DNA from: Bdellovibrio sp. | Lineage (GTDB): Bacteria; Bdellovibrionota; Bacteriovoracia; Bacteriovoracales; Bacteriovoracaceae | Length of the DNA: 64,000 bases | Direction of reading: 5' to 3' | NCBI GenBank assembly: GCA_016187935.1 | Contig: JACPIU010000020.1 | Span: 1-64,000 of the forward strand | Position numbers and translations under genes: made by a program | The notes under the pieces: generated by a model | Told to the model about the DNA's origin: nothing | Databases searched by the model: none | What the model saw: the letters and a program-made list of their open reading frames with translations, nothing else | In this document: positions 12,203 through 57,522 of the stretch, piece by piece | Numbering within the stretch: position 1 is the first letter of the stretch | Layout of the letters: each line of letters opens with the position of its first letter

Positions 12203-13015
12203 ATGAAATGTATGATGTTGCCATTTATCTTGTTAAGCTTAGTTATGACAATGTCTTGCGGCAAAGACATGTTAAATGGATTGAATAATGCCCCCGTTAA
12301 TCAATTAAACAAATCATCCTCTTCGCCTGATCCAACTCCAACCACCACTCCCACTATCGCGCCGGTCGACAATGAAGGCAACTGCACTTGCCCTTTGATC
12401 TATGCACCGGTATGCGGGGCAGATGGAATGACGTACGGAAACTCGTGTGTGGCCAAGTGTAAAAATGTCTTAAGCTATAGCGATGGTGAATGTCCTAACC
12501 AGGAGCTTGATCCCGACGAACAGAGCTGCATTTGTACCCTGGAGTACATGCCTGTCTGCGGGGCCGATGGCAATACCTATGGAAATAGTTGCGTGGCAAA
12601 ATGTAACAATATCACTTCATACACTCAAGGAGTTTGTTCTCACCCTACAGTTGATGCTTGCATTTGTCCCTTGATCTACTCGCCGGTTTGTGCCAGCAAT
12701 AATCAGACCTATTCCAATGGTTGTCTGGCAAAATGTGATAACTTCAGCTCCTATCGAGTCGGGAAATGTACAAAAATCGAAGAACCATCATCCGATCTTT
12801 TATGCAAATGTCCTTATATCTACGCCCCTGTTTGCGGCAGTGATAAAAAAACCTACGCCAATGCCTGTGTCGCTAAGTGTAACGACATCACAAGCTATCG
12901 CAACGGGAAATGTCTCGAACTTTTCTATCCAAAAAAAATACCAGTGGAAATTGAAGATATCAAAATAAAAATTCCAGTCCTGGCAAATCCGCTTAAATGG
13001 TCAATCCCAAGGTAG
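12203..13015 (+). CDS. Lipoprotein with four Kazal-type serine protease inhibitor domains
   Basis: This 270-residue protein has a signal peptide and a lipobox-like MTMSC (Cys19), so it is probably an outer-membrane or surface lipoprotein. A Ser/Pro/Thr linker (residues about 37-55) leads to four Kazal domains at about 61-97, 109-145, 153-189 and 201-237. Each has six cysteines and a PVCG- or PVCA-like core with a TYxN segment. The residue at the canonical P1 position (second after the second Cys) is Leu, Leu, Leu and Tyr, which suggests inhibition of elastase-, chymotrypsin- or subtilisin-like proteases. It is a single gene, convergent with the next one. A role in resisting host or self proteases is inference. 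Confidence 0.88.
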   Translation: MKCMMLPFILLSLVMTMSCGKDMLNGLNNAPVNQLNKSSSSPDPTPTTTPTIAPVDNEGNCTCPLIYAPVCGADGMTYGNSCVAKCKNVLSYSDGECPNQELDPDEQSCICTLEYMPVCGADGNTYGNSCVAKCNNITSYTQGVCSHPTVDACICPLIYSPVCASNNQTYSNGCLAKCDNFSSYRVGKCTKIEEPSSDLLCKCPYIYAPVCGSDKKTYANACVAKCNDITSYRNGKCLELFYPKKIPVEIEDIKIKIPVLANPLKWSIPR

Positions 13016-29533: not shown

Positions 29534-30391
29534 CTATGCCAGACCGTAAACCTTCCGAGCTTCGTCCACAGTGGCAACATTCTGCCCTATTTCTCTGACA
29601 ATCTTGGCCAGGGCCTCCACCAATTTTCCATTGGAATAGGTTTTCTCACCATTGGGTAAATAAAATGTATCCTCAACACCGGTTCGAACATGGCCTCCCA
29701 GTTCACAGGCACGGCGCAAGAGAGGCCACACCTCCTCTTGACCTATGGCAATGACCTGCCATGCCGCTTTGGGTGGCATTTCTTCTAAAAGCAGAGGAAG
29801 CCAGGATGGTTTGGCAGGCATTCCACTACTCACTCCCATCACGAGGGAAACATTGATGGGATCACTCAAAAGGCCAGTGCTCTTATACATCGAAATACTG
29901 CGCAAAATTCCGGTATCAAAACACTCACACTCAGGGCGGACATTGTTTTCCTTCATGGCCTTCAAGAAGCTAGCGATCTTGTCCACAGGATTATCAAAGA
30001 GAATCGGAGGCCAGGCCCATGAACCATCTTTTTTGGTTTTCAGATAATTCAAGGTGCCGGAATTCATGGCGGCGATTTCCGGCCGCACGGCCTTGAGACA
30101 GGCCACCGGTCCCGAGATATCCGGTCCCATCACCCCCGTCGACATATTGATAAGCATCTTCGGAACGGCAGTGCGAACGGCATCACAAATTTCAGAAACA
30201 ACACTCACATCCCATGTGGGGAAGGCCCCTTTATCCGGTTCTTGGCGCCGGAAATGGCAATGGACCACACTGGCACCGGCGTTATACGCCTCCAAGGCCG
30301 CCGCTGCCATCTCTTTTGGAGTCACGGGAACTTTATGCATTTTGGGATCGGTCAGTACACCTGTAATGGCACACGATATGACAGTACTCAT
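29534..30391 (-). CDS. Beta-keto acid cleavage enzyme (BKACE/Kce, DUF849)
   Basis: The start at ATG 30391 has GGAGGG upstream and gives ATGA overlap with the acyl-CoA dehydrogenase stop; a longer in-frame ATG at 30412 is less likely. The 285-residue TIM-barrel protein has the zinc-site segment SVVHCHFR and the family text GTLNYL, ECFDTG, GVSSGMPA and RTGVEDTFYLPNG. BKACE enzymes condense a beta-keto acid with acetyl-CoA to release acetoacetate and a new acyl-CoA. In this liu-like operon it occupies the place where HMG-CoA lyase would be expected. The actual keto acid is unknown. Confidence 0.88.
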   Translation of the reverse strand: MSTVISCAITGVLTDPKMHKVPVTPKEMAAAALEAYNAGASVVHCHFRRQEPDKGAFPTWDVSVVSEICDAVRTAVPKMLINMSTGVMGPDISGPVACLKAVRPEIAAMNSGTLNYLKTKKDGSWAWPPILFDNPVDKIASFLKAMKENNVRPECECFDTGILRSISMYKSTGLLSDPINVSLVMGVSSGMPAKPSWLPLLLEEMPPKAAWQVIAIGQEEVWPLLRRACELGGHVRTGVEDTFYLPNGEKTYSNGKLVEALAKIVREIGQNVATVDEARKVYGLA

Positions 30392-31530
30392 TCCATTCCC
30401 TCCATTTTGCAAATAATTTCCTTCATGATTTCATTGGAACCGCCCCCAATTCCCAGTAATTTGCCATCTCTAAAATAGCGGGCCACTTCATATTCAGTCA
30501 TAAGTCCGTAGCCTCCGTGGATCTGGACACATTCCTCTGTAACTCGCTGTTGCGTCTGGGCGGTAATGAGCTTGAGCATCGAAACATCTTTGGTGAAATC
30601 AATTCCATGATTAGCCATTTGAATACATTTAAAGCTCATGGTTTCAAGCAGGGTAATTTCCGAGAGCATTTGTGCCATTTTATGCCGGGTGACTTGATGC
30701 TTATAGAGGGGTTGTCCAAAGGCCTGACGTTCAAAAATATATTTTTTGGTCAGATCATAGCAGCGCTTAAGTCCACCGATGGCCAGCGCCACTGCGGCTA
30801 GACGCTCAAATTGGAATTGTTCCATTTGATAAATAAATCCCTTTCCTTCCTGACCGATCAAATGCTCTTTTGGCACACGAACATTATCCAAAATAATTTC
30901 CGCCGTATCAGAGGAAGGAAAACATGTTTTCTTTAAGCGCTTGCCAGTGGAAACCCCTGGAGTTTTGGTGGGAACAACGATAAGCGACATTCCCTGATAG
31001 CCAGGGCCTGGAGTCGTGCGTGCCAAGAGAGTCAAAAAATCGGCCTGAGTACCATTTGTGATAAACATTTTGCGGCCATTGATCACGTAGTCGTTACCAT
31101 CTTTTACCGCTTTGGTATCAATAGCGGCGACATCAGAACCATGCCCTGGCTCAGTCACGGCAATTGAGCAAATCATATCACCGGAAATGGCAGGCGCCAG
31201 ATAAGTTTTCTTCAAAAAATCAGAGCCGTGTTTGGCCAAGGCCGGAGTGGCCATATCACATTGAACCGACAGCCCCAGTGCCACCCCGGGAGAACCGCAT
31301 TTTCCCAGTTCATGATTGAGAAGATAACTGTAGCTATGATCAGCATTGGCACCACCATAATCGGAGGAATAGGTCACCCCGAGAAAACCCAATTCTCCGC
31401 ATCTCTTCCAAACCGAGCGCGGAGTAAAACCTTGCGCTTCCCATTCTTCGACATGGGGACGCAGTTCTTTTTCGACGAAAGTACTGACGGATTTTTTAAA
31501 CATTTTATGTTCTTCATTAAAGGGCATCAT
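30388..31530 (-). CDS. Acyl-CoA dehydrogenase, isovaleryl/long-chain type
   Basis: This 380-residue protein has the two acyl-CoA dehydrogenase signatures (AVTEPGHGSDVAAIDT and a C-terminal YFRDGKLLGIGGGSNEIM). The usual catalytic Glu of the C-terminal motif is Gly here (GIGGGS). A Glu in QFERLAAVALAIGG matches the position used by isovaleryl-CoA and long-chain dehydrogenases. This fits leucine-derived isovaleryl-CoA oxidation, consistent with the neighbouring carboxylase. Its start abuts the stop of the biotin carboxylase gene. Confidence 0.9.
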   Translation of the reverse strand: MMPFNEEHKMFKKSVSTFVEKELRPHVEEWEAQGFTPRSVWKRCGELGFLGVTYSSDYGGANADHSYSYLLNHELGKCGSPGVALGLSVQCDMATPALAKHGSDFLKKTYLAPAISGDMICSIAVTEPGHGSDVAAIDTKAVKDGNDYVINGRKMFITNGTQADFLTLLARTTPGPGYQGMSLIVVPTKTPGVSTGKRLKKTCFPSSDTAEIILDNVRVPKEHLIGQEGKGFIYQMEQFQFERLAAVALAIGGLKRCYDLTKKYIFERQAFGQPLYKHQVTRHKMAQMLSEITLLETMSFKCIQMANHGIDFTKDVSMLKLITAQTQQRVTEECVQIHGGYGLMTEYEVARYFRDGKLLGIGGGSNEIMKEIICKMEGME

Positions 31531-33507
31531 TTATTCTTCTCCTTCTAGTTGAATAAGTTGTTCATTTTTTTCCACCATTTGTCCGCTGGCCACAAAGACA
31601 TCCTTGACCACCCCGGTTTTATGAGCAGCGACACTGTTTTCCATTTTCATCGATTCGATAATTACCAGTTCATCACCGGCCTTAACTTTGTCTCCTTGGC
31701 GCACAAAGACTTTAACGATCTTCCCAGGCATGGAAGACAGATAGCGATTCGCGGCACCGGCAATTTCAGCTTCCTTAAAACGCGGGATTTGCGTAATCTC
31801 GATCGGGCCCAAGATGGGATGATGGGCCCATGAATTAACCACGCAAAAACGCAATTGCCGCTCAGATATTTTAAAGCTCACATTTTGATCCTCATAATCG
31901 AGGAAGGTAATGCTATGAGTGGCACCGTGGTTGATCTGTACTTCAAAGTGATCGTCAATGTGGCGATATGAAAGGAGGTATTTTTGGCCTTCACACTCAT
32001 ATTCAACTTGAGCTGGCCGATAGAAATTATTACGCCAGCCGGTGGGAAGCTCTTTAAGAATTTTTTGCTTATGCTTACGTTCAAACCAATCTTTTAACCA
32101 TACAGCATACACAATCTCGTGATGCATTTCCGCCGGATTTGCTTTTTTCAATTCCTCGCCATAGAGGGGTAGGAAATTGGTACCATAGCTGCCATCAATA
32201 AATTGGGGATGCTCCAGAATTTTCGAAAGTAAGGCGTGATTGGTGGTGAGGCCAAGGAGTTCCAAGCGCGCTAAGATCCAGTGCATTTTTCTCATCGATT
32301 CCTGACGAGAATTTCCATGGGCAATAACTTTGGCCAGCATGGGGTCATAAAAAATTCCAATTTCGCTGCCGTCTTCGAGTCCATGATCAATACGAATCCC
32401 CGGCCCATGAACTTCACGCCAGCGTAGTACCTTGCCACTCATAGGCAAAAAATCATGGCGCCAATCTTCGGCATATAAACGACATTCAACAGCGTGTCCG
32501 GTTTGTTTCAAGCTACTTTGTTGCAACGTCAACGCCTCACCTTGAGCGATGCGCAGTTGCCACTCGACTAAATCAACCCCGGTGACTTCTTCTGTGATGG
32601 GATGTTCTACTTGAATGCGCGTATTCATTTCTAAGAAGTAAAAGTTTTTGCTGGCAGAATCGACAATGAACTCGACCGTTCCGACCCCGAGATATTGCAC
32701 TGATCGGGCTATCGCCACTGCGGCCTGCCCCATCTTTTCTCGCAACTCAGGAGTCACGCTGGGTGATGGCGTCTCCTCAATAATTTTTTGATGGCGCCGT
32801 TGCACTGAACATTCGCGCTCAAAGAGATGCACGGTATGCCCTGACTGATCGGCCAAAACTTGAATTTCGATATGCTTAATAACGGGAAAATATTTTTCAA
32901 TTAGAATTGTGTCATCACCAAAGGCGTTCTTAGCATTGCGCTTGGCAGCTTCTATGGCGGTGGCAAGCGTTTTCTCCGATTCCACCACCTGCATACCTTT
33001 GCCACCACCACCCGCCGCGGCCTTGATCAAAATCGGATACCCGATTTTTTTCGCCTCTTTTTCTAAACGTCCAAGCGACTGATCATCACCATTGTATCCC
33101 GGCACGATGGGTAGGCCAAGGGCATTAACGATATCACGGGCGACATTTTTCATGCCCATTTTATCCATGGCCTCAGCTCGCGGGCCGATAAAACAGATGC
33201 CGGCCCTTTCACAGGCAAGCGCCAAATCTGAATTTTCCGATAGAAATCCATAACCGGGATGGAGTGCGTCCGCTCCCTGTTTTTTGGCAGCGCTGACCAC
33301 TTTCTCTATGTTGAGATAAGACTCTAAAGCGGTCATTCCTCCCAAGGCCACGGCTTCATCGGAGAGCTTCACCGCCAAACTGTCTCGATCATGGTCAGAG
33401 TAGAGCACCAAAGTTTGGATTCCCAATTTGTGGCAGGCGCGAATGACTCTGCAGGCAATCTCACCTCGATTGGCCACGCATACTTTTTTAAAATATTTAG
33501 CTTCCAC
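31531..33507 (-). CDS. Acyl-CoA carboxylase biotin-carboxylase/BCCP subunit (MCC alpha-like)
   Basis: This 658-residue protein has an N-terminal biotin carboxylase domain (ATP-grasp, residues about 1-450, with AAAGGGGKGMQVVES and EMNTRIQVEHPITEEVTG). A middle domain and a C-terminal biotinyl domain with ESMKMENSV, biotin on the central Lys, complete it. The length and fused carrier match the alpha subunit of methylcrotonyl-CoA and related carboxylases. With the beta subunit 11 bp upstream in the operon it would carboxylate a branched enoyl-CoA. A propionyl-, geranyl- or acetyl-CoA substrate cannot be excluded. Confidence 0.92.
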   Translation of the reverse strand: MEAKYFKKVCVANRGEIACRVIRACHKLGIQTLVLYSDHDRDSLAVKLSDEAVALGGMTALESYLNIEKVVSAAKKQGADALHPGYGFLSENSDLALACERAGICFIGPRAEAMDKMGMKNVARDIVNALGLPIVPGYNGDDQSLGRLEKEAKKIGYPILIKAAAGGGGKGMQVVESEKTLATAIEAAKRNAKNAFGDDTILIEKYFPVIKHIEIQVLADQSGHTVHLFERECSVQRRHQKIIEETPSPSVTPELREKMGQAAVAIARSVQYLGVGTVEFIVDSASKNFYFLEMNTRIQVEHPITEEVTGVDLVEWQLRIAQGEALTLQQSSLKQTGHAVECRLYAEDWRHDFLPMSGKVLRWREVHGPGIRIDHGLEDGSEIGIFYDPMLAKVIAHGNSRQESMRKMHWILARLELLGLTTNHALLSKILEHPQFIDGSYGTNFLPLYGEELKKANPAEMHHEIVYAVWLKDWFERKHKQKILKELPTGWRNNFYRPAQVEYECEGQKYLLSYRHIDDHFEVQINHGATHSITFLDYEDQNVSFKISERQLRFCVVNSWAHHPILGPIEITQIPRFKEAEIAGAANRYLSSMPGKIVKVFVRQGDKVKAGDELVIIESMKMENSVAAHKTGVVKDVFVASGQMVEKNEQLIQLEGEE

Positions 33508-33518
33508 AAGTTACTCCT

Positions 33519-35129
33519 CTACATCCTGAATACCCCAAAGCCTGAATCTAAATCGGTCAGTCCCTGGTTGATCGCGGCCAAACATATACCCAATACCGCA
33601 CGAGTATCACGCGGATCAATGATGCCATCATCCCATACTCTACTGGTGGAATAATAGGCCCCGGATTCATGAGCGATCCGTGATCGCAATGTTTCTTTAG
33701 CTATTTTCATCTTGGCGGCATCTATCTTGCCGGCAAAAAAGCCACTCTTTTCCGCTTTCTGTTTTTGCACAATCTCCATCACTCCCACCAATTGCTCCTC
33801 CCCCATGACCGCCAGCTTGGAATTCGGCCAGGAAAAGAGAAAGCGAGGAGCATAAGCGCGCCCGCACATTCCATAGTTTCCGGCACCGTAAGAAGCCCCC
33901 ATGACAACCGTAATGGCGGGTATAGTGCAGTTAGAAACGGCATTAATTAATTTCGCGCCATTTTTAATAATACCTTCTTCTTCAGCTTTCTTTCCCACCA
34001 TGAAGCCCGTGATATTTTGAAAAAAGAGCAGTGGAATGCGACGCTTGTTCATGAGTTGAATAAACTGCGCTCCCTTATTGGCCGAAGCTGAAAAGAGCAC
34101 GCCGTTGTTGGCCAATATCCCCACCCTATGACCGTGCAGATGAGCAAATCCCGTCACCAGACTTTCGCCATAGAGTGGTTTAAATTCTAAAAAGCGTGAG
34201 CCATCCACGATACGGGCAATAACCTCGCGCATATCAAAGGGTTTTCGAACATCAGCGGAAACAATCTTTAAGAGATCTTCTGAGGGATAGAGCGGTTCAC
34301 AACTCGAACTCGATGCCTTGGCTTCGGGCCAGTTTAAACTTGCCACGATCTGGCGCGCTTTTTTAATCGCCTGGGCCTCGTTCTCGGCCAGAAAATCACA
34401 TAGACCGGATTGGCGACTATGCATATCGGCCCCACCCAATGATTCATCATCACTATCTTCATTAATCGCCATCTTGACTAATGGCGGACCGGCCAAATAA
34501 GTTTTGGCCTGCTTTTGAACCATAATGATGTAATCGCACATTCCGGGAACATAGGCCCCACCGGCGGTACTCGACCCAAAAACCACCGAAATGCTGGGTA
34601 GTCCAAGACCCGAACGTCGAGTGATTTCTCGAAAGGCCCTGCCTCCGTAATTAAAAATTTTGGCCTGTTGCGGGAGATCGGCGCCGGCCGATTCGGTCAA
34701 ATAAATCACCGGCAGTTTATTTTCTAAGGCAATTTCGTCCAAGCGCGTGGCCTTCTGCAAACTGACTTCGTTTAAAGCTCCACCTTTTTCAGTGGGAACG
34801 TTGGCATTGATCAGACACAACACACCACTCACGATTCCAATACCGGCCACCACCGAGCCACCGAGAGTCATATCTTCTTGTTCCCAACCGGCCAGGGGCA
34901 TGAGTTCTAAAAAAGGCGAATCAACATCAAGCAGCAGTTCAATGCGATCCCGCGCCAATAATTTACCGCGACTGTGGTGCCGTTCAATATATTTTTGCTG
35001 TCCTTGCTGAACACTTAAGTGCAGCCGTTCTTTCAATTCCAAACACAAGGCCTGCATCTGCTGATAGTTTTCTTGCACCCGAGCGGTTTGCACTGAAAGC
35101 GATGTTCTGATCACATCAAATTCTTGCAC
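33519..35129 (-). CDS. Acyl-CoA carboxylase carboxyltransferase subunit (MCC beta-like)
   Basis: I choose the GTG at 35129 because GGAGGAGG lies 6 nt upstream; the ATG at 35150 would put that site inside the gene. The product is 536 residues with N- and C-terminal crotonase-like carboxyltransferase halves. Family signatures include VVFGSSTAGGAYVPGMCDY, ESLGGADMHSRQSGLCDF and GASYGAGNYGMCGRAY. It transfers CO2 from biotin to an acyl-CoA, most likely 3-methylcrotonyl-CoA. It overlaps the MerR regulator gene by 14 bp. Confidence 0.9.
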   Translation of the reverse strand: MQEFDVIRTSLSVQTARVQENYQQMQALCLELKERLHLSVQQGQQKYIERHHSRGKLLARDRIELLLDVDSPFLELMPLAGWEQEDMTLGGSVVAGIGIVSGVLCLINANVPTEKGGALNEVSLQKATRLDEIALENKLPVIYLTESAGADLPQQAKIFNYGGRAFREITRRSGLGLPSISVVFGSSTAGGAYVPGMCDYIIMVQKQAKTYLAGPPLVKMAINEDSDDESLGGADMHSRQSGLCDFLAENEAQAIKKARQIVASLNWPEAKASSSSCEPLYPSEDLLKIVSADVRKPFDMREVIARIVDGSRFLEFKPLYGESLVTGFAHLHGHRVGILANNGVLFSASANKGAQFIQLMNKRRIPLLFFQNITGFMVGKKAEEEGIIKNGAKLINAVSNCTIPAITVVMGASYGAGNYGMCGRAYAPRFLFSWPNSKLAVMGEEQLVGVMEIVQKQKAEKSGFFAGKIDAAKMKIAKETLRSRIAHESGAYYSTSRVWDDGIIDPRDTRAVLGICLAAINQGLTDLDSGFGVFRM

Positions 35130-35538
35130 CTGGAACCTCCTCCATTTCATCCAATTCGCGCAGTCTTTCTACACATTTTCTTCCATGTTCGATTAGTTCG
35201 CGCTCCATGGCCTCCAGTTCTTTTTTCTCTCTTTGAATCTTCTCCATGTACTGATGACCGTATAAAATGGCCTGCTTGATCTGCTCGCGCTCATCCATCA
35301 CAACATCAGCACGTCCTAAAATGCTCACAATTTGATCGAGTGTCATGCCAAAGCGCTTTCCACGCAAGATGAGCTTCAACCTTGCCCGGTCACGCCGCCC
35401 AAAAGTACGTTGATTACCCTGCCCGCGATGCGGTTTGATCAGACCTTTCTCTTCATAAAAACGAATTGTCCGGGTACTTAGAGCAAACTCAGTGGCCAGC
35501 TGAGAAATGCTGTAACTTTTTGATTTTACGTTTTTCAT
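35116..35538 (-). CDS. liuR: MerR-family regulator, LiuR-like
   Basis: This 140-residue MerR protein has an N-terminal winged helix (YSISQLATEFALSTRTIRFY, then EEKGLIKPHRGQGNQRTF) and a coiled-coil C-terminus, without the cysteines of metal sensors. It heads an operon for acyl-CoA carboxylation and dehydrogenation, as LiuR does in proteobacterial leucine catabolism operons. A palindrome lies in the spacer of its own promoter (35551-35566), the classical MerR arrangement. There is no recognisable ribosome site, and the start codon falls almost at the predicted transcript start. Confidence 0.82.
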   Translation of the reverse strand: MKNVKSKSYSISQLATEFALSTRTIRFYEEKGLIKPHRGQGNQRTFGRRDRARLKLILRGKRFGMTLDQIVSILGRADVVMDEREQIKQAILYGHQYMEKIQREKKELEAMERELIEHGRKCVERLRELDEMEEVPGARI

Positions 35539-48323: not shown

Positions 48324-49300
48324 TGCAAGACAGACTCCTGCAAAGTGTGCAGTAATTGCTTGGCCAAAACTCCCTCTTGATCCAATGAAGGATGTATTTG
48401 CAATGCCATGGATAATTGTCCATTCCAAGTAACCAATCCAAGGGCCACGGGATGAGACTTTGAAAGAGGTGGACAAAAGGCCCAAGTTTGATCGGCATTG
48501 GGATGTGACCAAACACCTAAATTACTGAGTGTACCGGTCCAAGAATGTTTTTTATCGTGATATTTCTTCATCAATCGATGCATCCCATTTAGTCCGATCA
48601 TGCGACCAAGCAAAATCCCCCACCATGCCGCCCAATGATAGCCAATCTTTAAGGCGGTCTTCAGTGTTTTACCGACATCGGCATCTTGCATGAAGCGGGA
48701 CAGAGTCACAGAAATATAGCTGGCATGATTACTATAAGGATTTTTCCGTTTGACACTGGCGCGCATATTAACCGGAATCAACCAAATATTTTTCTTCTGT
48801 TCATTCTGCAATAAGGTGCGAACACATTCATCTAAACGTTGCAAAATGAGAGCGGTCAAAGTCACTTGTTTTGAACGGGCCAGATTCATTAAATGATTGG
48901 TTTGCTCAACGCTATAAACAAACACGCAAGGAATCATTTTCTTGCCGGGAAGGGAATGTTCGCGCCTTTTCCAATTAATTGAATTGGCCTTCGATTCCAG
49001 GAAATATTTTATAAATCCCAAACACCGCCAGAAGAAATTAGACCGGCTTTCGGTTTGTGCTCGATAGATGGCATTGGGGCATTGCTGTTGCTCCAATAAA
49101 ACCTGGAAACCACCAACTCCATCATATTGACCGTGATCGAGGTAATAGATATCCTCGACCGCACCTGCCGATGAACATTTGAGATAAACAATATCCGTGA
49201 ATTCTCCAAAGGAACGAATGATAGGGAACCACTCACCTACCCAATCAAGCTTCCAATTGTGATCGTCAAATTTATTCAATCTTTTGATTTCCCGGTCCAA
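48320..49300 (-). CDS. Condensation-fold acyltransferase (HxxxDG)
   Basis: This 326-residue protein has HGQYDG in YYLDHGQYDGVGGFQVLLE, the HxxxDG catalytic motif of the chloramphenicol-acetyltransferase/condensation/wax-ester-synthase superfamily. The C-terminal half carries the supporting TGTLSNLGVW segment typical of these folds. It probably forms an ester or amide with a thioester-bound acyl chain. The called start is a TTG at 49300 overlapping the radical SAM stop by 29 bp; a TTG at 49279 is an alternative. It is last in a minus-strand arm with two radical SAM genes, opposite a dedicated fatty acid set. Confidence 0.75.
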   Translation of the reverse strand: MDREIKRLNKFDDHNWKLDWVGEWFPIIRSFGEFTDIVYLKCSSAGAVEDIYYLDHGQYDGVGGFQVLLEQQQCPNAIYRAQTESRSNFFWRCLGFIKYFLESKANSINWKRREHSLPGKKMIPCVFVYSVEQTNHLMNLARSKQVTLTALILQRLDECVRTLLQNEQKKNIWLIPVNMRASVKRKNPYSNHASYISVTLSRFMQDADVGKTLKTALKIGYHWAAWWGILLGRMIGLNGMHRLMKKYHDKKHSWTGTLSNLGVWSHPNADQTWAFCPPLSKSHPVALGLVTWNGQLSMALQIHPSLDQEGVLAKQLLHTLQESVLH

Positions 49301-50633
49301 AATATACTGGAATAATATTGCGTTTAATTTTGAGCCAATAATAGAATGAATTGGTCAAATGGTATATTTTATTTTTATAGGTTGACTTAAGCCAACGCTT
49401 TAAAATGTTTTTAATCGAATAAAATTCTCGCAGCACACGCCAGAAATTTTGCATGATCATTTCAGCATCCATATGAGGATGTTTAAAGACAACATAGCCT
49501 TCACGGTAGTGTGAAAGATCACTGTCAATAATGATTCCATTGCTCAAGGCCTTTCTGCCGGCCGGTGTTGCGGGGTATGGAGTATTAATAAAAAACTCCG
49601 CAATTGTAATATTTAATTCTTCTAAGTATTTGAGGGTGTCATCAAAAACCGCGGGAGTGTCCTGCTCCAACCCGAACATAATGAGAGCATGCACGGCAAT
49701 TCCGACGTCCTGAATTTGGGCGATTTGTTCAGCAAATTTATCAGCACGGTTAAAACCTTTATTGACTTGGTTCAAATTGGTCTGAGAGAGACTTTCCATT
49801 CCCAAGGCCACCCAGCGGCATCCGGCCTTATAGGCCAATTCAAGAAGTTCGCGGTCTTTGTGAATATTAATGGTCGTCTGAGTTCCCCACACCACTCTTA
49901 AGGGAATCATTTGACGAAAAAGTTCTTTGGCGTATTCGAAATCTTCCATCAAATTGTCGTCTGTAAAAAAAATCAAATTAAAAAGCGAATGTTTTTTGGC
50001 GGCATTAATATCACGAATCACATGCTCTATAGGACGATGACGGTAGGTGTACCCATGGAATTGAATAATTGAGCAATAGTCACATTTAAAAGGGCACCCC
50101 CGTGTGGCATGAATGGGATAGATCACGGTATGATCTTTTTTTATCAGATCGTAACGAGGCGTAGGAATATTATCCAGAGGAACTTCCGAAGTCCCCTTAT
50201 AGATTTTCTTCAAACATCCATTCTCAATATCCTTCAACATTTGGGGGAAAACTTGATCGCCATCGCCCACACATAAAGCGTCCACATGCGGTGAAACCAA
50301 ATCGGGATGCATGCTAGCGAGATAGCCTCCCATCAACACAACTTTCCCTCGTTTTCTAAATTCATCCGCCAAATCGAGGGCACGTCGAACTTGCATGACC
50401 TGGGCCGAAATCGCCACCACTTGTGCCGGATCATCAAAATTTACATCTTCAAAGCAATCCTCCACCAACTCCATTTCGACATCAGAGCGGACATAGGCCG
50501 CCAAATAAGGCAGTGCCGAATGGACCACATTGGCAACAGAAAGTTTGTCAATCAGACGATCGGCACGAACGACCTTTCCTTGATCATCATAATGAGACGA
50601 ATGGACCAGCAGTAGTCGTTGAATCGTTCCCAT
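49272..50633 (-). CDS. B12-binding-type radical SAM protein
   Basis: This 453-residue protein has an N-terminal Rossmann-like cobalamin-binding region (residues about 1-140, VVAISAQVMQVRRAL and GKVVLMGGYLASMHP). A radical SAM core has the cluster motif GCPFKCDYCSI (CxxxCxxC) near residue 178, and a C-terminal helical region follows. The family includes methylases and lipid-modifying enzymes such as those of hopanoid and bacteriochlorophyll pathways. It lies between a Tes-like radical SAM gene (9 bp upstream) and an acyltransferase gene, so a role in altering an acyl chain is likely. Whether cobalamin is bound cannot be judged by eye. Confidence 0.85.
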   Translation of the reverse strand: MGTIQRLLLVHSSHYDDQGKVVRADRLIDKLSVANVVHSALPYLAAYVRSDVEMELVEDCFEDVNFDDPAQVVAISAQVMQVRRALDLADEFRKRGKVVLMGGYLASMHPDLVSPHVDALCVGDGDQVFPQMLKDIENGCLKKIYKGTSEVPLDNIPTPRYDLIKKDHTVIYPIHATRGCPFKCDYCSIIQFHGYTYRHRPIEHVIRDINAAKKHSLFNLIFFTDDNLMEDFEYAKELFRQMIPLRVVWGTQTTINIHKDRELLELAYKAGCRWVALGMESLSQTNLNQVNKGFNRADKFAEQIAQIQDVGIAVHALIMFGLEQDTPAVFDDTLKYLEELNITIAEFFINTPYPATPAGRKALSNGIIIDSDLSHYREGYVVFKHPHMDAEMIMQNFWRVLREFYSIKNILKRWLKSTYKNKIYHLTNSFYYWLKIKRNIIPVYFGPGNQKIE

Positions 50634-50642
50634 GTGTCGACT

Positions 50643-52136
50643 CTAAGTCAACTCTTTGCGAGTCGGGGCCTGAACATTGGACATACTCAAACGCTTATCC
50701 TTAAAACGATGAACATTATTATAAGCACAACCTGGCATCAATCGGCCGTCGGGAAGAGCATAATGGGTACAGCATTTTCGAATACGTGAGATATCAAAAT
50801 CATTTTCATCCATAAAGGAGTGTACAAAAATTGCCTTAATCTTGGTTTCTTGCAGTTTCCACAATTGCTCTTGACCCATATTGTCCGCGACTTGGTATTC
50901 TTTAAGAATTGATTTGAGTGAGCCAAGCACTTTCTCAGTATCAACCGTTACCGACTGGGCGGACCAAAGATTATAAATGGCGTCCTGAATAAGCTGCTGG
51001 GCCTTATCATCCATTCCGGCGCCTAAGATCGCACGGTTAGTGAGGGCATCGAGATAAATCGCCAAATCTCCAAAATGAGTCAATGGAACAAATTTATCTT
51101 TTTCGACGCCTAAAGCATAGCAGGCAGTATAGCAACTTGGGTGCGAGCAAGGAATCGGCAGAAAATCCTCTTTCTTCAACCACTCGGTTTGTGATTCAAG
51201 CAGTCCATGAATATCCACTTGCGTGAGTTTCTTTAACGGATCTTGCGGAAAGGCAGTACCACCGGCACCAGTGTAGGCCGCCGGTTGAATGGTGACTGAA
51301 GTTACAAAGTCGTGCGACAGCGCAAAATTCACGACCTTTCCAACTTCGTTATCGTTAAACCCACGAGCGATAGTCGGTACAAAAATTGTCGGAATTTTAT
51401 ATTTATCACATTTTTCCAAACACGCCATTTTGGCCTCAAGCAAATTTTCTCCGCGAATGGCGTGATAATTGGCATCACTTAGGGAATCAAACTGCAAAGA
51501 CAAATAAAGCCCGGCCTCTTTAAAACGACGGGCAAATTCATCACTTCGACCGATTTTTAAACCATGTGATGACACCAAAACACGTTTGATTTCTTTACGC
51601 GAACGAGCATGTTCCGCCAATTCAAAAAACTTGGGATGCAAGGTCGGCTCACCACCACTCAACAAGCAAAGTTCCAAGGAACCTTCACGCTCGATCAGTC
51701 CATCAATGACATGCCTAAACTCGCTTAATTCCATATTGTAGTTATTCTGATTCCACACAATACAAATGGGACACTCAAGATCGCACTTATTGCTGATTTC
51801 GATAATCGGCGAACAAGTATGTTGTTCATGATCGGCACACAGACCGCAATCATCCGGACATCCCTTATCGACGGGAGTTGAAAACTTCTTGGGAATAGTT
51901 CCGGGTTTTGTATAGGAAAGGGATTTAACCCAATAATTCACATCGCTCGAAAGAAGGGCATTGAACTCGCCATGTTGCTGGCAGCGTTTATTTAATACCA
52001 CCTGATTGTCGACGAAAATAATCTTGGCCTGAATCGTTTTCCTACATTTTGGACAAATCGATTGGGTGGCAGAAAAAAAGGCGCCACGACGATCTTCTTT
52101 GTCTTTAAAAGTCGTATCCCCACAACAATTCACCAT
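50643..52136 (-). CDS. Radical SAM protein of the Tes/MJ0619 family
   Basis: ATG 52136 is chosen (AGGTGG upstream). The 497-residue protein opens with a zinc-like region (ICPKC, then CQQHGEF). It continues with GCPDDCGLCADHEQHTCSPI and the radical SAM motif CDLECPIC near residue 117. Further C-terminal cysteines (PCSHPSCYTACYALG, KCCTHYALPDGRLMPGC) could hold extra clusters. This cysteine layout is that of the family containing archaeal tetraether synthase Tes and MJ0619, whose bacterial members are proposed to join lipid tails. First gene of the minus arm of the lipid cluster. The family call is firm; the reaction is not. Confidence 0.85.
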   Translation of the reverse strand: MVNCCGDTTFKDKEDRRGAFFSATQSICPKCRKTIQAKIIFVDNQVVLNKRCQQHGEFNALLSSDVNYWVKSLSYTKPGTIPKKFSTPVDKGCPDDCGLCADHEQHTCSPIIEISNKCDLECPICIVWNQNNYNMELSEFRHVIDGLIEREGSLELCLLSGGEPTLHPKFFELAEHARSRKEIKRVLVSSHGLKIGRSDEFARRFKEAGLYLSLQFDSLSDANYHAIRGENLLEAKMACLEKCDKYKIPTIFVPTIARGFNDNEVGKVVNFALSHDFVTSVTIQPAAYTGAGGTAFPQDPLKKLTQVDIHGLLESQTEWLKKEDFLPIPCSHPSCYTACYALGVEKDKFVPLTHFGDLAIYLDALTNRAILGAGMDDKAQQLIQDAIYNLWSAQSVTVDTEKVLGSLKSILKEYQVADNMGQEQLWKLQETKIKAIFVHSFMDENDFDISRIRKCCTHYALPDGRLMPGCAYNNVHRFKDKRLSMSNVQAPTRKELT

Positions 52137-52224
52137 AAACAACCACCTATTTTATTGAATAAGGTATCATGCTACAATCGCACCAATCTATTGAATAGTT
52201 AGCGTAAAGATTTTACAGGGAACG

Positions 52225-52257
52225 TTGCCCGCTCACCCCCCCCCTGCTATCTATAAG
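52225..52257 (+). promoter_or_regulatory. Candidate promoter with C9 tract in its spacer
   Basis: TTGCCC (52225-52230) and TATCTA (52248-52253, preceded by TG at 52245-52246) are 17 bp apart. The spacer contains nine consecutive C residues (52236-52244). A second -10-like TATAAG is at 52252-52257. Length change in the C tract would alter promoter spacing, the classic route to phase variation. The -35 and -10 matches are only moderate. Confidence 0.45.
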
Positions 52258-52285
52258 CTAGACACGATATTTTTTTGGGCGTTTT

Positions 52286-53032
52286 ATGCGTATTAACCTT
52301 GAAAATTGCAAGGTCATTGTGACTGGTGGCTCGCGCGGCCTAGGGCGGGCCATCGTGATGGAGCTGGCCAAATGTGGTGCCCAGGTGGCCTTTACCTATT
52401 CGAATAGCGAACCAGAGGCCGACAAAACCGTACAAATAGTACAGCACCAAACCGGACAAAAAATCACAGCTATGAAGGCCAGTGCCACTGATCGAATGGG
52501 TCTGATAGAATCGGTCAAAACCTTAATGCAGGCATGGAAATCGGTAGATGTGCTCATCAACAATGCCGGAGTAAGTGAATTTTTGCCTCTCGCCTTGATG
52601 GAAGAATCCGAATGGGACCGCACTCTCGATACCAATTTGAAAGGTGTTTACCTCACCACCAAGGCGGTTATTCAACATATGATCCGAAATCGCCAAGGGC
52701 ATATCCTCAATATTGGCTCACTGGCAGGCGCCCGTCTGTTGGCCGCCCCCATCGATTACTGCTCATCAAAAGCAGGTGTCATCGGTTTTACCGAGGCGCT
52801 GGCGAAAGAAGTCGGCCGCTACCAGATAAAAGTGAACTGCCTCGCCCCCGGAATTTTAGATGGTGGGGTGGCCAAAGGAATTCCTGAAAACAAATATGTG
52901 GAGTTTATGGAACAAATTTCACTTCACAGGCCCGGCAACTTTGATGAAGTGGCGCGCTTCGTGGCCTTTTTAGTATCCGGTAAAAATAGTTATATGAGTG
53001 GTTCAACCATCATCATGGATGGTGGCTTATGA
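52286..53032 (+). CDS. FabG-type 3-oxoacyl-ACP reductase
   Basis: This 248-residue classical SDR has the cofactor loop TGGSRGLGRAI, NNAG, and the catalytic Ser/Tyr/Lys (NIGSLAGAR, YCSSKAG). It closes with the FabG-like SGSTIIMDGGL. It should reduce 3-oxoacyl-ACP with NADPH. First gene of the plus-strand arm of the lipid cluster; it overlaps the next SDR gene by 4 bp. This is one of three SDR genes in the cluster. Confidence 0.9.
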   Translation: MRINLENCKVIVTGGSRGLGRAIVMELAKCGAQVAFTYSNSEPEADKTVQIVQHQTGQKITAMKASATDRMGLIESVKTLMQAWKSVDVLINNAGVSEFLPLALMEESEWDRTLDTNLKGVYLTTKAVIQHMIRNRQGHILNIGSLAGARLLAAPIDYCSSKAGVIGFTEALAKEVGRYQIKVNCLAPGILDGGVAKGIPENKYVEFMEQISLHRPGNFDEVARFVAFLVSGKNSYMSGSTIIMDGGL

Positions 53033-53784
53033 ATAAATTGTTTTTAGTCATTGGTGGTTCCGGCCATGTTGGCCAGGCCCTAGTCCTAAGTCTTCTCAAT
53101 GAAGGATACGAAGTCGTTGCAACTTTTCATACCAACCAATCGGTCTTGAAAAATGCTCAACTGTCTCAGGCCAAATGGATTGCCTGTGATGTCCGCACAA
53201 ATGATGGGCGCAAGGGACTGCGAGAGTATCTGGACAAACTGGAACGTCCTCTGGATGGCGTTGCCATCACTGTAGGAAAAACTCCTCCGTCACTCAAAAA
53301 AGATAATGCCGAACGCTTAAACTTCTATCGATCTTTCGAAGGTACGGAAGATCAAACGGCCACATGGATGGATGAGGCCTTTAACGTTCATGGGAAAGGC
53401 ACCTATCTGGCGCTTAAAGAAACCATTCCTTATTTACAAAACGCCGTCAATCCCAACATCGTTATCACAGGATCTTTAATAGGCCATAAGGCCGTCAACA
53501 CTCCCGTGGCCTTTGCGGCAACCAAATCCTGCACTCGTGGGCTGGTTGAATCTCTGTCAAAAGATTTAGGCGAATTCAACATCAAAGTAAACTCAGTTGA
53601 TCCGGGGATGCTGGAAAGTGGGGCTTCGGCCTTAATCTCGGATCAATTGAAACGCGAATATTTAAAACATTGCTCCCTTCGCAGGTTTGGGAAAGCGGAA
53701 GAAGTGGCCAATGTCATAACTTATTTTTTAGATGAAAATACATATGTGACCGGGCAATCTGTTCTTTTGGATGGTGCTCTGTAG
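53029..53784 (+). CDS. SDR protein with Phe in place of the catalytic Tyr
   Basis: This 251-residue Rossmann protein resembles FabG/enoyl reductase-like SDRs (VIGGSGHVGQAL, ITGSLIGHKAV, and a FabG-like end GQSVLLDGAL). The YxxxK motif reads FAATK: Phe162 where Tyr should be, with Lys166 kept. Ser149 is conserved. Enoyl-ACP reductases (FabI) also shift the Tyr position, so the protein may have a different mechanism, or be a structural or binding subunit. It overlaps the preceding FabG gene by 4 bp; the FabZ-like gene follows 13 bp downstream. Confidence 0.82.
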   Translation: MNKLFLVIGGSGHVGQALVLSLLNEGYEVVATFHTNQSVLKNAQLSQAKWIACDVRTNDGRKGLREYLDKLERPLDGVAITVGKTPPSLKKDNAERLNFYRSFEGTEDQTATWMDEAFNVHGKGTYLALKETIPYLQNAVNPNIVITGSLIGHKAVNTPVAFAATKSCTRGLVESLSKDLGEFNIKVNSVDPGMLESGASALISDQLKREYLKHCSLRRFGKAEEVANVITYFLDENTYVTGQSVLLDGAL

Positions 53785-53797
53785 GGGGAGGTTTGTT

Positions 53798-54274
53798 GTG
53801 AGATACTTTTTAGTCGATAAAGTAACCGAAGTGGTACCAGGTGAGTATGCCCGAGGGCTTAAGGCCGTCACTCTGACTGAGCCAATTCTGCATGACCATT
53901 TTCCCGATTATCCTGTGCTTCCAGGCGCCATGATTATTGAAGGTCTGGCGCAACTGGCAGGGCTCATTCTCGAAGTAACTTTTAACAAGACGGACGAAAA
54001 GATCGTGCGCGCCATCTTGGTTCAAGTCGATAAAATGAAATTTTATCGGCCGACAACACCGGGTGAAGTGCTCACCTATGAAGCAAGAATTGAATCTTTG
54101 CTGGAAGATGCCGCACGCATGGGTGTGACGGCAAAATGCGGAGAGGAAGTTCGTGCCACCGGCAAAATCAACTTCCAGATGGCACCCATCAATACCGATA
54201 ACATAAAAAAACAGCGCCAAGATATTTATCGCGTCTGGACTAAGGAGATAAAAAATTGTCCTCCTCTACGATAA
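53798..54274 (+). CDS. FabZ/FabA-like hot-dog dehydratase
   Basis: I choose the GTG at 53798 because GGGGGAGG lies 6 nt upstream; an ATG at 53771 overlaps the previous gene. The 158-residue hot-dog protein has the catalytic His in HDHFPDYPVLPGAMIIEGLAQ, and the Glu of the same stretch is in the FabZ-like position. It would dehydrate 3-hydroxyacyl-ACP. Its end overlaps the start of the truncated ketosynthase-like gene by 19 bp. Confidence 0.88.
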   Translation: MRYFLVDKVTEVVPGEYARGLKAVTLTEPILHDHFPDYPVLPGAMIIEGLAQLAGLILEVTFNKTDEKIVRAILVQVDKMKFYRPTTPGEVLTYEARIESLLEDAARMGVTAKCGEEVRATGKINFQMAPINTDNIKKQRQDIYRVWTKEIKNCPPLR

Positions 54275-55164
54275 AAACAACACAGTCAGAACAAGTTGAG
54301 ATAAGCATTTTAGGTTTCGGGCAAGTTATCCCCGAAGGCATGAGTTTTAATGCATGCCCAAACCGCGAAACAAAAATTGATTTTGGAACCATATTAAAAG
54401 ATCGCAAGGCCTCTAAGTTTTTTTCCAAACAAGATTCACTGGCCCTACTGGCCTGCCATCAGGCATGGAGTATGTCCAATATTGTTGATCCTAACTATCA
54501 CGATCGAACCGGAATTTATCTCTGTGTGGGCATTCTCCCTTTTGAAGACAAACCACTCCAGAAAATTGCAGAATTGTCACAAACCGATGGCATGTTGGAT
54601 ATGCAGAAATCCTCCACTGATAGCTTTAATGCCATGAACCCCTTGTTAACTTTTAAATGTCTCCCCAATATGCCGCTCTATCACGTCTCGGCAACTTTAG
54701 GCATCACCGGACGTTATTTTATGACTTATCCAGGAATTCCCGAATGGTTCTCCGCCTTGGAAAGGGCGGTATTCGATTTACAGTCTGGCCTGGTGGATTA
54801 TGCCATTGTGGGTGCCGCCGCTGACCAGAACAACTACTTGGTTCAACATCATATTCGTCGCATTCGCCCAGACTTGTTGGATAAATTAGTTGATGTTTCT
54901 TCGGCCATGGTTTTAACCACTCAAAGAAATGGAACCCCACTGGCACGTATTAAAAATATCGAGACCAAATATCAGGCCTTCAATCCGCTGGGAAATAAAT
55001 CCCTCTTGGTGCAGTCCAGCGGGGCCTTTTTCGCCCATACTGGCGTGGTTGAGCCCTCGCTCTATCTCAACTTTAAATTGCAAGAAAGAAATGATAAAGA
55101 ACTTTGCTACTCGTGGAAGGGTTCCAATTACAATTCATGCTCGATGACACTGGAGTTGTTATGA
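54256..55164 (+). CDS. Half-length ketosynthase-like protein lacking the active Cys (KS-beta/CLF-like)
   Basis: This 302-residue protein begins at a TTG at 54256 with AAGGAG 8 nt upstream. It matches the N-terminal part of beta-ketoacyl synthases, but the active-site segment reads LYHVSATLGITGRYF, with Thr147 where Cys should be. The C-terminal half with the two catalytic histidines is missing. Such partner subunits (chain-length factor, KS-beta) dimerise with a full KS and shape chain length. It overlaps the complete KS gene by ATGA, supporting a heterodimer. Confidence 0.75.
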   Translation: MSSSTIKTTQSEQVEISILGFGQVIPEGMSFNACPNRETKIDFGTILKDRKASKFFSKQDSLALLACHQAWSMSNIVDPNYHDRTGIYLCVGILPFEDKPLQKIAELSQTDGMLDMQKSSTDSFNAMNPLLTFKCLPNMPLYHVSATLGITGRYFMTYPGIPEWFSALERAVFDLQSGLVDYAIVGAAADQNNYLVQHHIRRIRPDLLDKLVDVSSAMVLTTQRNGTPLARIKNIETKYQAFNPLGNKSLLVQSSGAFFAHTGVVEPSLYLNFKLQERNDKELCYSWKGSNYNSCSMTLELL

Positions 55165-56381
55165 ACAAAAGAGTTGTCATCACTGGAATCGGCGCTGTTA
55201 CTCCCATCGGTAATAATGTAAAAGATTTTGCCCGCAATCTGTTTGCCATGCGATCAGGGGCAGGACGCATTCAACGTTTTGACCCGGCCGAACTTCCTAC
55301 CAAAATCGCCTGTGAAGTCAAAAATCTTGATGGTGATTTCCGCGATGTCAAAATTACCTTTGCCTTAGTCGCGGCACGCGAGGCCTTGCGCCATGCCTTT
55401 GGACAATTGGCCATCCCCGACCATGCCAAATCACTACTCAGCATGGGCATTGGGCTGGAATTGTTTGCCGTGGATGATCTTATCTCTCTCCACAATAAAG
55501 GCCATGAAAATGTGGAAGACGCCAACTCGCTAACTTTTTTGAATACCCCCTCTGATATCTGCGCCCATCTTATTTGCCAGGAGGCAAAGATCAACCACTC
55601 TCCTCTTTTGCATATCTCGGCCTGTGCTGCGGGAACAGACGCTATTGGCACCGCTTTTTTAAAAATTCGCGCCGGCCATGTGCAAGTGGCCCTGGCCGGT
55701 GGCACGGACTCCATGATCAATCCCATGGGCCTAGCAGGATTCTGCCGTATCGGAGCCATGACTCAAAAAAATGATACACCCGATATTGCCTCCAGGCCTT
55801 TCGATAAAGACCGTGATGGTTTTGTTTTAGGAGAAGGCTCGGGTTTTTTAGTTTTAGAAGAAGAAGAATTTGCCAAAAAGCGAGGCGCAAAAATTCTCGC
55901 CACGCTGGAAGGTTATGGTAATAGCTTGGATGCCTATAGTATCAGCGATCCGCATCCTGAAGGTGCTGGGGCTTTGAAATCCATGTCACGGGCCTTGTCC
56001 ATTGCAGGTTTGAACGTCGATCAGATAGATGCTGTCAACGCCCATGGTACGGCCACGCCCAAGAATGATCCCGCCGAATCAGCGGCGATACGAAAACTTT
56101 TGGGGGAACGCTACAAACAAGTTCCGGTCTCTTCCACTAAATCTTTGATCGGGCACTGCATTTCCGCCGCCGGTGCCATCGAAACCGTGGTGTGTGTGCT
56201 TTCCTTTTTGGAGAACAAACTGCATGCTACTCGCAATTTAACCGAAGTTGCGCCCGGTTGTGAGCTTCGTCACATCTTGGGCGAACCGATCGAATTTAAA
56301 GGTCGATATATTTTAAAAAATTCTTTTGGTTTCGGCGGTCAAAATGGCTCCCTTATCGTGGGCCGGTGGGTAAATTCATGA
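55161..56381 (+). CDS. 3-oxoacyl-ACP synthase, FabF-like (KS-alpha)
   Basis: Starting at ATG 55161 (GGAG upstream), this 406-residue ketosynthase has the complete Cys-His-His triad. Cys155 is in HISACAAGTDAIG, His295 in NAHGTATPKNDPAE and His332 in KSLIGHCISAAGA. The end FGFGGQNGSLIVGRW is a typical thiolase-fold tail. It would elongate acyl-ACP with malonyl-ACP. It is coupled by overlap to the Cys-less KS before it and to the FabG gene after it (ATGA). Confidence 0.92.
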   Translation: MNKRVVITGIGAVTPIGNNVKDFARNLFAMRSGAGRIQRFDPAELPTKIACEVKNLDGDFRDVKITFALVAAREALRHAFGQLAIPDHAKSLLSMGIGLELFAVDDLISLHNKGHENVEDANSLTFLNTPSDICAHLICQEAKINHSPLLHISACAAGTDAIGTAFLKIRAGHVQVALAGGTDSMINPMGLAGFCRIGAMTQKNDTPDIASRPFDKDRDGFVLGEGSGFLVLEEEEFAKKRGAKILATLEGYGNSLDAYSISDPHPEGAGALKSMSRALSIAGLNVDQIDAVNAHGTATPKNDPAESAAIRKLLGERYKQVPVSSTKSLIGHCISAAGAIETVVCVLSFLENKLHATRNLTEVAPGCELRHILGEPIEFKGRYILKNSFGFGGQNGSLIVGRWVNS

Positions 56382-57112
56382 CACTTCTTCGAGATAAACT
56401 CATCCTCATTGCCGGAGCGACCGGGGCCATCGGTGAGGCCATCGCTCGCCAATGTGTTATCCAGGGTGCTCAAGTCATTTTGGGATACAACAAAGCTCAG
56501 GAAAAAGCGCAGGCACTTCAAAACGAGTTGCACGCCCAAAGTTTGAAACTCGATCTCTCCAACAACCAAGAACTCGAGCAGACCTTCAACGAACACAAGG
56601 CCATGCTCGACAATGTTACCGGTCTGGTCAATGCCTCCGGTATTAATGTCTCAGGGCCGCTTATGTCTTTGGATGGGGCGGCGGTGGAAAGACAAATTAA
56701 CGCCAATCTAACCGGGGCCATTCAACTCACACGATTGACCTCCAAATCTATGATCAGAAAGCGCCAAGGTAGTATCATTCACATGGGCTCGGTTTCTGCC
56801 CATCGCATGATTCGAGGCCATAGCGTCTATTCCGCGACAAAGGCCGGATTAGAAGGTTTTACCAAGGCCTTGGCAGCGGAACTCGCCAAACGTGGAATCA
56901 GGGTCAATACCATTCTTCCTGGTCCTGTGATGAGCGAGATGTTGAAAAACAGTATGGAAACAACCGGTGATAATCCGGCGGAAAGAGTTCCCATGCAACG
57001 TTTGATTACACCCGATGAAGTGGCCCATGCCACGGTCTTTTTGCTCTCGGATAACGCATCCGCCATCACCGGGGTTTGTCTACCTGTCGATGGTGGATAC
57101 TTACTTTGGTAA
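56378..57112 (+). CDS. FabG-type SDR reductase
   Basis: Starting at ATG 56378 (ATGA overlap with KS-alpha), this 244-residue SDR has the cofactor motif AGATGAIGEAIARQC, a Ser in HMGSVSAHRM and an intact YxxxK (YSATKAGLEG). It ends in the FabG-like GVCLPVDGGYLLW. It is a second complete oxoacyl reductase in the cluster, 20 bp before the carrier protein gene. Two functional reductases plus the Phe-variant suggest different intermediates. Confidence 0.88.
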   Translation: MTLLRDKLILIAGATGAIGEAIARQCVIQGAQVILGYNKAQEKAQALQNELHAQSLKLDLSNNQELEQTFNEHKAMLDNVTGLVNASGINVSGPLMSLDGAAVERQINANLTGAIQLTRLTSKSMIRKRQGSIIHMGSVSAHRMIRGHSVYSATKAGLEGFTKALAAELAKRGIRVNTILPGPVMSEMLKNSMETTGDNPAERVPMQRLITPDEVAHATVFLLSDNASAITGVCLPVDGGYLLW

Positions 57113-57132: not shown

Positions 57133-57522
57133 ATGGCTACCCTGACTCGTGAAGCTCTTGTAACCGGTGTTATCGAATGTATCTCAGAAAGTTTGGCCAA
57201 AGATCAGGCTTCGATTACAGAAAAGACACTTCTGATCTCAGAACTCGGTGCCGATTCACTGGACATCATGGATATCATGTTTCATTTGGAAGAAAAGTTC
57301 AGCATTAACCTGCAAAAAGAAGATTTCAACTTCTTAAAACGACTTAACTTAAGTGATGAAGAAGGCATCAAAGAAGGATTGCTTACTCCAGTTGCCAAGA
57401 CCAAATTGAAAGAATGGTTGCCTTCTTTAGAAGAACAGAAAGATCTGCGACCTGCTGATCTCGGCCAATATCTCTCAGTGGCCTCAATTGTCAAGATGCT
57501 TGAAACCCAACAGGGAGTCTGA
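57133..57522 (+). CDS. Oversized acyl carrier protein
   Basis: The 129-residue protein carries the phosphopantetheine site LGADSLDIMDIMFHLEEKF with Ser42. Ordinary ACPs are about 80 residues; here about 40 extra residues lie between the third helix region and the C-terminal helix (about residues 66-110, KRLNLSDEEG through LRPADLGQYL). AAAAGGAGAAAT supplies a clear ribosome site. It ends the lipid operon, and its 3' end overlaps the convergent kinase gene by 39 bp. Confidence 0.88.
   Translation: MATLTREALVTGVIECISESLAKDQASITEKTLLISELGADSLDIMDIMFHLEEKFSINLQKEDFNFLKRLNLSDEEGIKEGLLTPVAKTKLKEWLPSLEEQKDLRPADLGQYLSVASIVKMLETQQGV

Follow-up and report, generated by a model that had tools for sequence, protein, structure and literature searches.

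A Tes-like radical SAM gene linked to a dedicated type II fatty-acid operon in Bdellovibrionota, a candidate locus for an unusual lipid

The window analyzed (a stretch of 64,000 nucleotides of one contig) comes from a Bdellovibrio-type groundwater bacterium and contains two divergent operons (Table 1). On the minus strand, a radical SAM gene related to the archaeal tetraether synthase (Tes) is in an operon with the genes of a B12-type radical SAM enzyme and of a condensation-fold acyltransferase. On the plus strand is an operon of genes of the type II fatty-acid synthesis (FASII) type. No sigma-70-like promoter was found in the intergenic region between them, fewer than in shuffled sequences.

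Table 1. Features of the two divergent operons, with positions in the window
Feature	Position	Strand	Evidence and remarks
Condensation/WS-DGAT/PapA-fold acyltransferase-like protein, 326 aa	48320..49300	-	Overlaps the B12-type radical SAM gene; HxxxDG
B12-type radical SAM protein (BchE/HpnJ-like)	49272..50633	-	Radical_SAM (Pfam); downstream from the Tes-like gene, 9-bp gap
Tes-like radical SAM protein	50643..52136	-	Radical_SAM (Pfam), HMPTM Zn-ribbon, NF045702, NF045646, 7TOL
Intergenic region between the divergent operons	52137..52285		Sequence read
FabG-type ketoreductase (SDR 1)	52286..53032	+	TIGR01830, 219 bits
SDR 2, catalytic Tyr/Lys motif degenerate (FxxxK)	53029..53784	+	Family profiles, alignment
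FabZ-like dehydratase	53771..54274	+	PF07977; TIGR01750, 98 bits; conserved start probably near 53798
Chain-length-factor-like truncated pseudo-ketosynthase	54256..55164	+	PF00109, E = 0.0033; ketosynthase alignment
FabF-like ketosynthase, Cys-His-Lys-His intact	55161..56381	+	TIGR03150, 393 bits; alignment
SDR 3 (FabG-like, YxxxK present)	56366..57112	+	Family profiles, alignment
Dedicated ACP, GADSL phosphopantetheine site, extended C terminus	57133..57522	+	PF00550, alignment

The sequence-only reading had located the Tes-like gene between 50643 and 52136 and had given no strand. Read on the plus strand, this segment gives 15 stops; the gene lies on the minus strand. There, the open reading frame covers 50643–52142 when read from a TTG (499 aa), and 497 aa when read from the ATG at 52136. 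A Shine–Dalgarno-like AGGTGG is present six bases 5′ of that ATG, so that the coordinates proposed earlier are the likely extent of the gene. Two Pfam domains score above their cut-offs, Radical_SAM and the N-terminal zinc ribbon HMPTM (an older name under which MJ0619 was a methanopterin methylase). With the solved structure of Tes (also called GDGT-MAS; MJ0619, 7TOL), the alignment is full-length and far beyond chance (E = 1.4e-66). The AlphaFold model of the protein has a pLDDT of 56 with the metal-site regions unresolved, and it was used for its fold match alone; the top Foldseek matches of this low-confidence model are 7TOL and 7TOM. A search of IMG/VR with the alignment of the family gave no relatives. 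One contig scan gave a single match, at 95% identity, in the metagenome-assembled genome MEPP01000011.

The metal ligands were compared column by column with the PDB chain of MJ0619 (residues of the Tes-like protein are numbered here from the TTG). All the Cys and His sites tested match those of MJ0619, as the cysteine layout had suggested at first reading. They include the rubredoxin site CxxC..CxxH (C30, C33, C54, H57), the N-terminal auxiliary cluster (C95, C99, C102, and H105, corresponding to C73, C77, C80, and a His of MJ0619), the radical SAM CxxxCxxC (C120, C124, C127), and the cysteines of the C-terminal cluster (C337, C457, C458, C472). The protein shares with archaeal Tes (7TOL/7TOM) also the four-part architecture and the equivalent of Tyr459 (Y461); in the compared set, a Tyr at this position occurs only in MJ0619 and in the Bdellovibrionota clade. 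On the other hand, every Bdellovibrionota member examined has His441 where Tes has its labile ligand Met439, the positions of Ser271 and Arg275 are changed, and the protein has an extra Cys332, which is common to TrsS-like haloarchaeal proteins. In 1000 archaeal homologues, Met439 is invariant (PMC9433317). The M439A and Y459 variants of MJ0619, however, stay active, and Tyr459 is not essential (PMC9433317), so that neither His441 nor Y461 decides which reaction is catalyzed and the Met-to-His change alone does not exclude coupling. The ligands of the N-terminal cluster are missing in relatives from haloarchaeal plasmids and in two actinobacterial relatives, and those of the C-terminal cluster are lost in a Persicobacter relative.

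The NCBIfam equivalog profiles do not separate Tes from TrsS for this protein. It scores 283 bits with the Tes profile (NF045702, cut-off 450) and 282 bits, in one continuous alignment, with the profile of the radical SAM (seleno)protein TrsS (NF045646, cut-off 490), and its orthologues in other Bdellovibrionota behave alike. The NF045702 cut-off was exceeded in none of the 241 sampled genomes of the phylum and in three of the 14 control genomes. A tree was computed from 15 sequences. Its seven Bdellovibrionota relatives form one supported group, within which the four members bearing the cluster (those of the window, G002, G040, and G030) form a supported subgroup. The placement of the group is tested weakly by this tree, with archaeal Tes represented by MJ0619 only: in the AU test, grouping with MJ0619 (p = 0.17), with the haloarchaeal proteins (p = 0.22), or with a protein of Mycolicibacterium vanbaalenii (p = 0.35) was not rejected. 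With both scores under the cut-offs and none of the three placements rejected, we regard the protein, on the basis of its sequence, as a member of the Tes superfamily that is assigned to neither Tes nor TrsS. The homology with Tes/MJ0619 claimed by the sequence-only reading is, thus, upheld by the 7TOL match and the aligned cysteines. The outcome that it named as refuting, a placement in a separate methanopterin branch of MJ0619, has to be abandoned: MJ0619, for which a role as pterin methylase had been suggested, has been demonstrated to be the tetraether synthase (PMC9433317), and there is no such branch to fall into.

Of its two partners on the minus strand, the B12-type radical SAM protein scores 111 bits with HpnJ and 103 bits with TIGR04072, with BchE similar and all under the cut-offs; a B12-binding domain is above the cut-off in its orthologue L030. 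The acyltransferase-like protein has no Pfam match. Its HxxxDG motif (H56-D60-G61) is invariant across five homologues, and its AlphaFold model (pLDDT 82) matches, by Foldseek, heterocyclization and condensation domains of NRPS, PapA5, and WS/DGAT. A second condensation-fold copy, 49% identical, is present elsewhere in the genome (L075 10150–12024, at ∼41–43 kb of G000:C6), convergent with a gene for a membrane-like protein of ∼310 aa. Members of the family of this last protein, which matches nothing in Pfam, also border the Tes-type clusters of G030, G026, and G278.

In the plus-strand operon, the pseudo-ketosynthase has neither the active Cys nor the C-terminal ketosynthase domain. The reading frame of the complete ketosynthase opens at 55104, with the conserved start at 55161, and its nearest solved structures are those of FabF. 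The housekeeping fabH-fabD-fabG-fabF genes of the same genome (G000) are on another contig (C25), and FabI is on C11; the locus would therefore be a dedicated acyl assembly line. The link to an ACP and a ketosynthase noticed in the sequence-only reading was confirmed, with these genes on the strand opposite to the Tes-like gene and with the pairing kept in other genomes.

A Tes relative occurs in five of the 97 genomes drawn from relatives and in eight of the 369 in the phylum (the window's own genome being counted in both). Eight other Bdellovibrionota genomes have a Tes relative or a pseudo-ketosynthase: three with the whole set, one with a diverged set, and four with parts. The linkage to genes of FASII type is kept at 95%, 76%, and 62% identity of the Tes relatives. 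The layout in G002 is the same as in the window. In G040 (76%), the FASII-type genes are directly downstream from the Tes relative with FabI inserted, and the pair of B12-type radical SAM and acyltransferase genes lies on the same contig at a distance of ∼14 kb. In G030 (62%), the whole set forms one collinear operon, and the B12-type radical SAM protein is fused to the acyltransferase (761 aa). The diverged operon of G278 (36%) contains ACP, FabG, dehydratases, a nitroreductase, two ketosynthases, and a pseudo-ketosynthase. G219 and G227 have a Tes–FabG pair at contig ends. In G026, the Tes relative is alone on one contig, with the B12-type radical SAM, acyltransferase, ketosynthase, and pseudo-ketosynthase genes on another. 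In G001, of the same genus as the window, the short contig with the FASII genes breaks off before the expected site of the Tes gene. Among the 97 relatives, an orthologue of the B12-type radical SAM protein (E below 1e-90) is found in exactly the five genomes with a Tes relative; the pseudo-ketosynthase is found in the same five (weakly in G026) and in the fragmented congener G001. These counts ignore shared descent, and the main weight is on adjacency that recurs from genome to genome, on rearranged gene orders, and on the fusion.

Other relatives of Tes are found next to methyltransferase genes rather than lipid genes. On haloarchaeal plasmids (L052 4980–7143, L063 3902–6180, L064 3983–6093), a radical SAM gene of the Tes/TrsS family is directly followed by a methyltransferase gene. 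G026 also contains, on contig C2 (L032 9560–12269), a shortened Tes-like protein of 378 aa, without the rubredoxin and N-cluster parts, with genes of a B12 radical SAM enzyme and of an SDR as neighbors. An aquaporin and a low-molecular-weight phosphatase beside the relatives in G026 (contig C22) and G219 had prompted the idea of a role with metalloids (arsenic). It was dropped for this clade since the same aquaporin, in G278, flanks a full FASII-type operon with a Tes relative.

With the genes, their conserved linkage, the ligand sites, the complete ketosynthase, and the ACP serine as observations, we infer the substrate, the order of steps, the coupling, and the product as follows. The ketosynthase and pseudo-ketosynthase, the ketoreductases, the dehydratase, and the dedicated ACP would build a special fatty-acyl chain, with enoyl reduction by the FabI encoded elsewhere in the genome. 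The Tes-like enzyme would cleave SAM and abstract a hydrogen from an unactivated carbon of the chain, and the carbon radical would be parked on the C-terminal [4Fe-4S] cluster, as for MJ0619 (PMC9433317). A new C–C bond could then form with a second chain, giving a tail-coupled lipid like diabolic acid, or inside one chain. Further tailoring of the chain (by C-methylation or rearrangement, for example) may be the task of the B12 radical SAM enzyme, and the condensation-fold acyltransferase may transfer the chain to a final acceptor.

These steps are not equally probable. That the Tes-like enzyme acts on the acyl chain of the linked FASII-type line is probable. For the locus as a dedicated acyl-chain pathway in which the Tes-like enzyme processes the chain with formation of a new C–C bond, we would give a probability of roughly 0.45. 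That the enzyme joins two chains is possible, if somewhat unlikely, and one should be more hesitant still about a complete route, coupled to a carrier protein, to lipids with joined tails (membrane-spanning or macrocyclic) in Bdellovibrionota, with a Tes-type enzyme, its own ketosynthase/chain-length-factor line, the B12-type radical SAM enzyme, and the condensation-fold transferase. The acyl-chain pathway is favored by the full-length homology with Tes, all the metal sites tested, Y461, the linkage, the co-occurrence of the B12-type radical SAM orthologue with Tes relatives, the separate housekeeping FASII genes, the complete active site of the ketosynthase, and the Ser of the ACP. Points against it are His441, the changes at Ser271 and Arg275, Cys332, and a Tes score that is under its cut-off and tied with that of TrsS, to which are added the tree, compatible with a placement either with Tes or apart from it, the methyltransferase pairing of relatives, and the split contigs of G026.

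A natural-product pathway, or one of ladderane or polyene type, might instead operate, although we would not bet on it. In such a pathway, the ketosynthase and pseudo-ketosynthase would make a polyunsaturated ACP-bound chain to be cyclized or desaturated by the two radical SAM enzymes, and nothing membrane-spanning would be formed. A truncated ketosynthase without active site next to an active one fits this proposal, as do SDRs of ketoreductase type and FabZ with no enoyl reductase in the operon of the window; in G040, however, FabI is inside the operon. Clusters combining FASII, radical SAM, and B12-radical SAM genes have been proposed as ladderane loci in the anammox bacterium Kuenenia and as the candidate for polyunsaturated hydrocarbons in Desulfotalea, which shares Kuenenia-type clusters and makes such hydrocarbons but not ladderanes (PMC2649909). 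As described there, those clusters resemble the present one in their FabF paralogues, some of them devoid of active site, FabG, FabZ, ACP, and the two kinds of radical SAM genes (PMC2649909). They differ from the cluster of the window in that the latter contains no phytoene-desaturase-like gene. Its B12-type protein is similar to the lipid B12-radical SAM family TIGR04072, which is associated with ladderanes, but is far under the cut-off (103 of 360 bits) and about equally close to HpnJ and BchE; an assignment to ladderane synthesis by way of this family, thus, failed.

An enzyme of the Tes fold could also modify an acyl-ACP or acyl-lipid by radical chemistry without coupling (by methylation, dehydrogenation, or insertion of sulfur, for example), but this seems to us improbable. 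Such a reaction would agree with the replacement of the labile Met by His, the changed positions of Ser271 and Arg275, and the relatives elsewhere that pair with methyltransferases. Moreover, MJ0619 proceeds via a C–S cluster-bound intermediate (PMC9433317), which makes other outcomes chemically near. The activity of M439A speaks on the other side. Very improbable is a TrsS-like function unrelated to lipids in an incidental FASII neighborhood: the tied scores, the single-stretch alignment, Cys332, and the haloarchaeal grouping left standing by the AU test would suit it, but the score is far from the TrsS cut-off, the FASII-type linkage is kept at 36%–76% identity despite rearranged operons and a gene fusion, and the N-cluster ligands kept in the Bdellovibrionota clade are missing in the TrsS-like haloarchaeal proteins examined.

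Mss, the membrane-spanning lipid synthase of Thermotoga and Clostridia, is the confirmed bacterial coupling enzyme. By description, the proposed tail–tail C–C coupling of fatty acyl chains is a feature in common with Mss. The two differ in that a search of four genomes gave no match to DUF2229 (PF09989), which we take to mark the ether-forming partner Ger and which served as marker for the Ger/PlsA route (the domain was found in Thermotoga maritima). Because of this result, the lipids, if made, are more likely ester- than ether-linked. The sequence-only reading had tentatively connected the homologue with membrane-spanning lipids: its tie to a dedicated type II system with ACP and ketosynthase is retained, and a membrane-spanning product would be a possibility only, in view of the profile scores, the tree, His441, and the result for DUF2229. 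Models of Mss are reported to share the catalytic architecture of Tes (PMC13274423). In bacteria, 456 Tes homologues were listed by Zeng et al., with branched tetraethers guessed as product (PMC8941075), and the activity of bacterial Tes homologues was described in 2025 as unconfirmed (PMC11868695).

The Bdellovibrionota gene is encoded with ACP, ketosynthase, FabG, and FabZ, whereas archaeal isoprenoid lipids use none of these. In a literature search, we found no report of a Tes homologue inside an ACP/ketosynthase operon, which does not disprove that one exists. By synteny at 36%–76% identity and by the fusion, a clade of Tes homologues is tied to a self-contained fatty-acid line of ∼10 genes. 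The substrate is thereby narrowed to an acyl chain, and the question becomes testable with one small gene set. Judged from its genes, the locus is a good candidate for an unusual, possibly tail-coupled, lipid. Coupling, if confirmed, would matter for the origin of biomarkers of the branched tetraether and diabolic-acid type.

There are other loci of possible interest in these genomes. One (L047 1–5709, at ∼70–75.7 kb of G000:C48) contains an OleC-like β-lactone synthetase (below cut-off), an α/β hydrolase, a KAS III (PRK09258 above cut-off), an ACP, a FabF-like ketosynthase, and an FAD oxidoreductase that reads like phytoene desaturase; it resembles a pathway to olefins or polyunsaturated hydrocarbons. 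Three B12-type radical SAM genes are grouped in L044 9146–15987 (G000:C6) and four in L045 7485–13971 (G030:C57), the latter arranged head to tail behind a further gene of radical SAM type; the neighbors read like GNAT and GH3 enzymes, with, in G030, also an RND/MMPL-like transporter. Within the window, as judged by eye, a protein of 764 aa (9800–12094) resembles quinol-dependent nitric oxide reductases, which would point to respiration at low oxygen, and the protein at 12203–13015 has four Cys repeats of Kazal-like type, a pattern known from secreted protease inhibitors. Also by eye, acyl-CoA dehydrogenase-like and biotin-dependent carboxylase-like genes at 29534–35150 are perhaps an operon for the degradation of branched-chain acyl-CoA.
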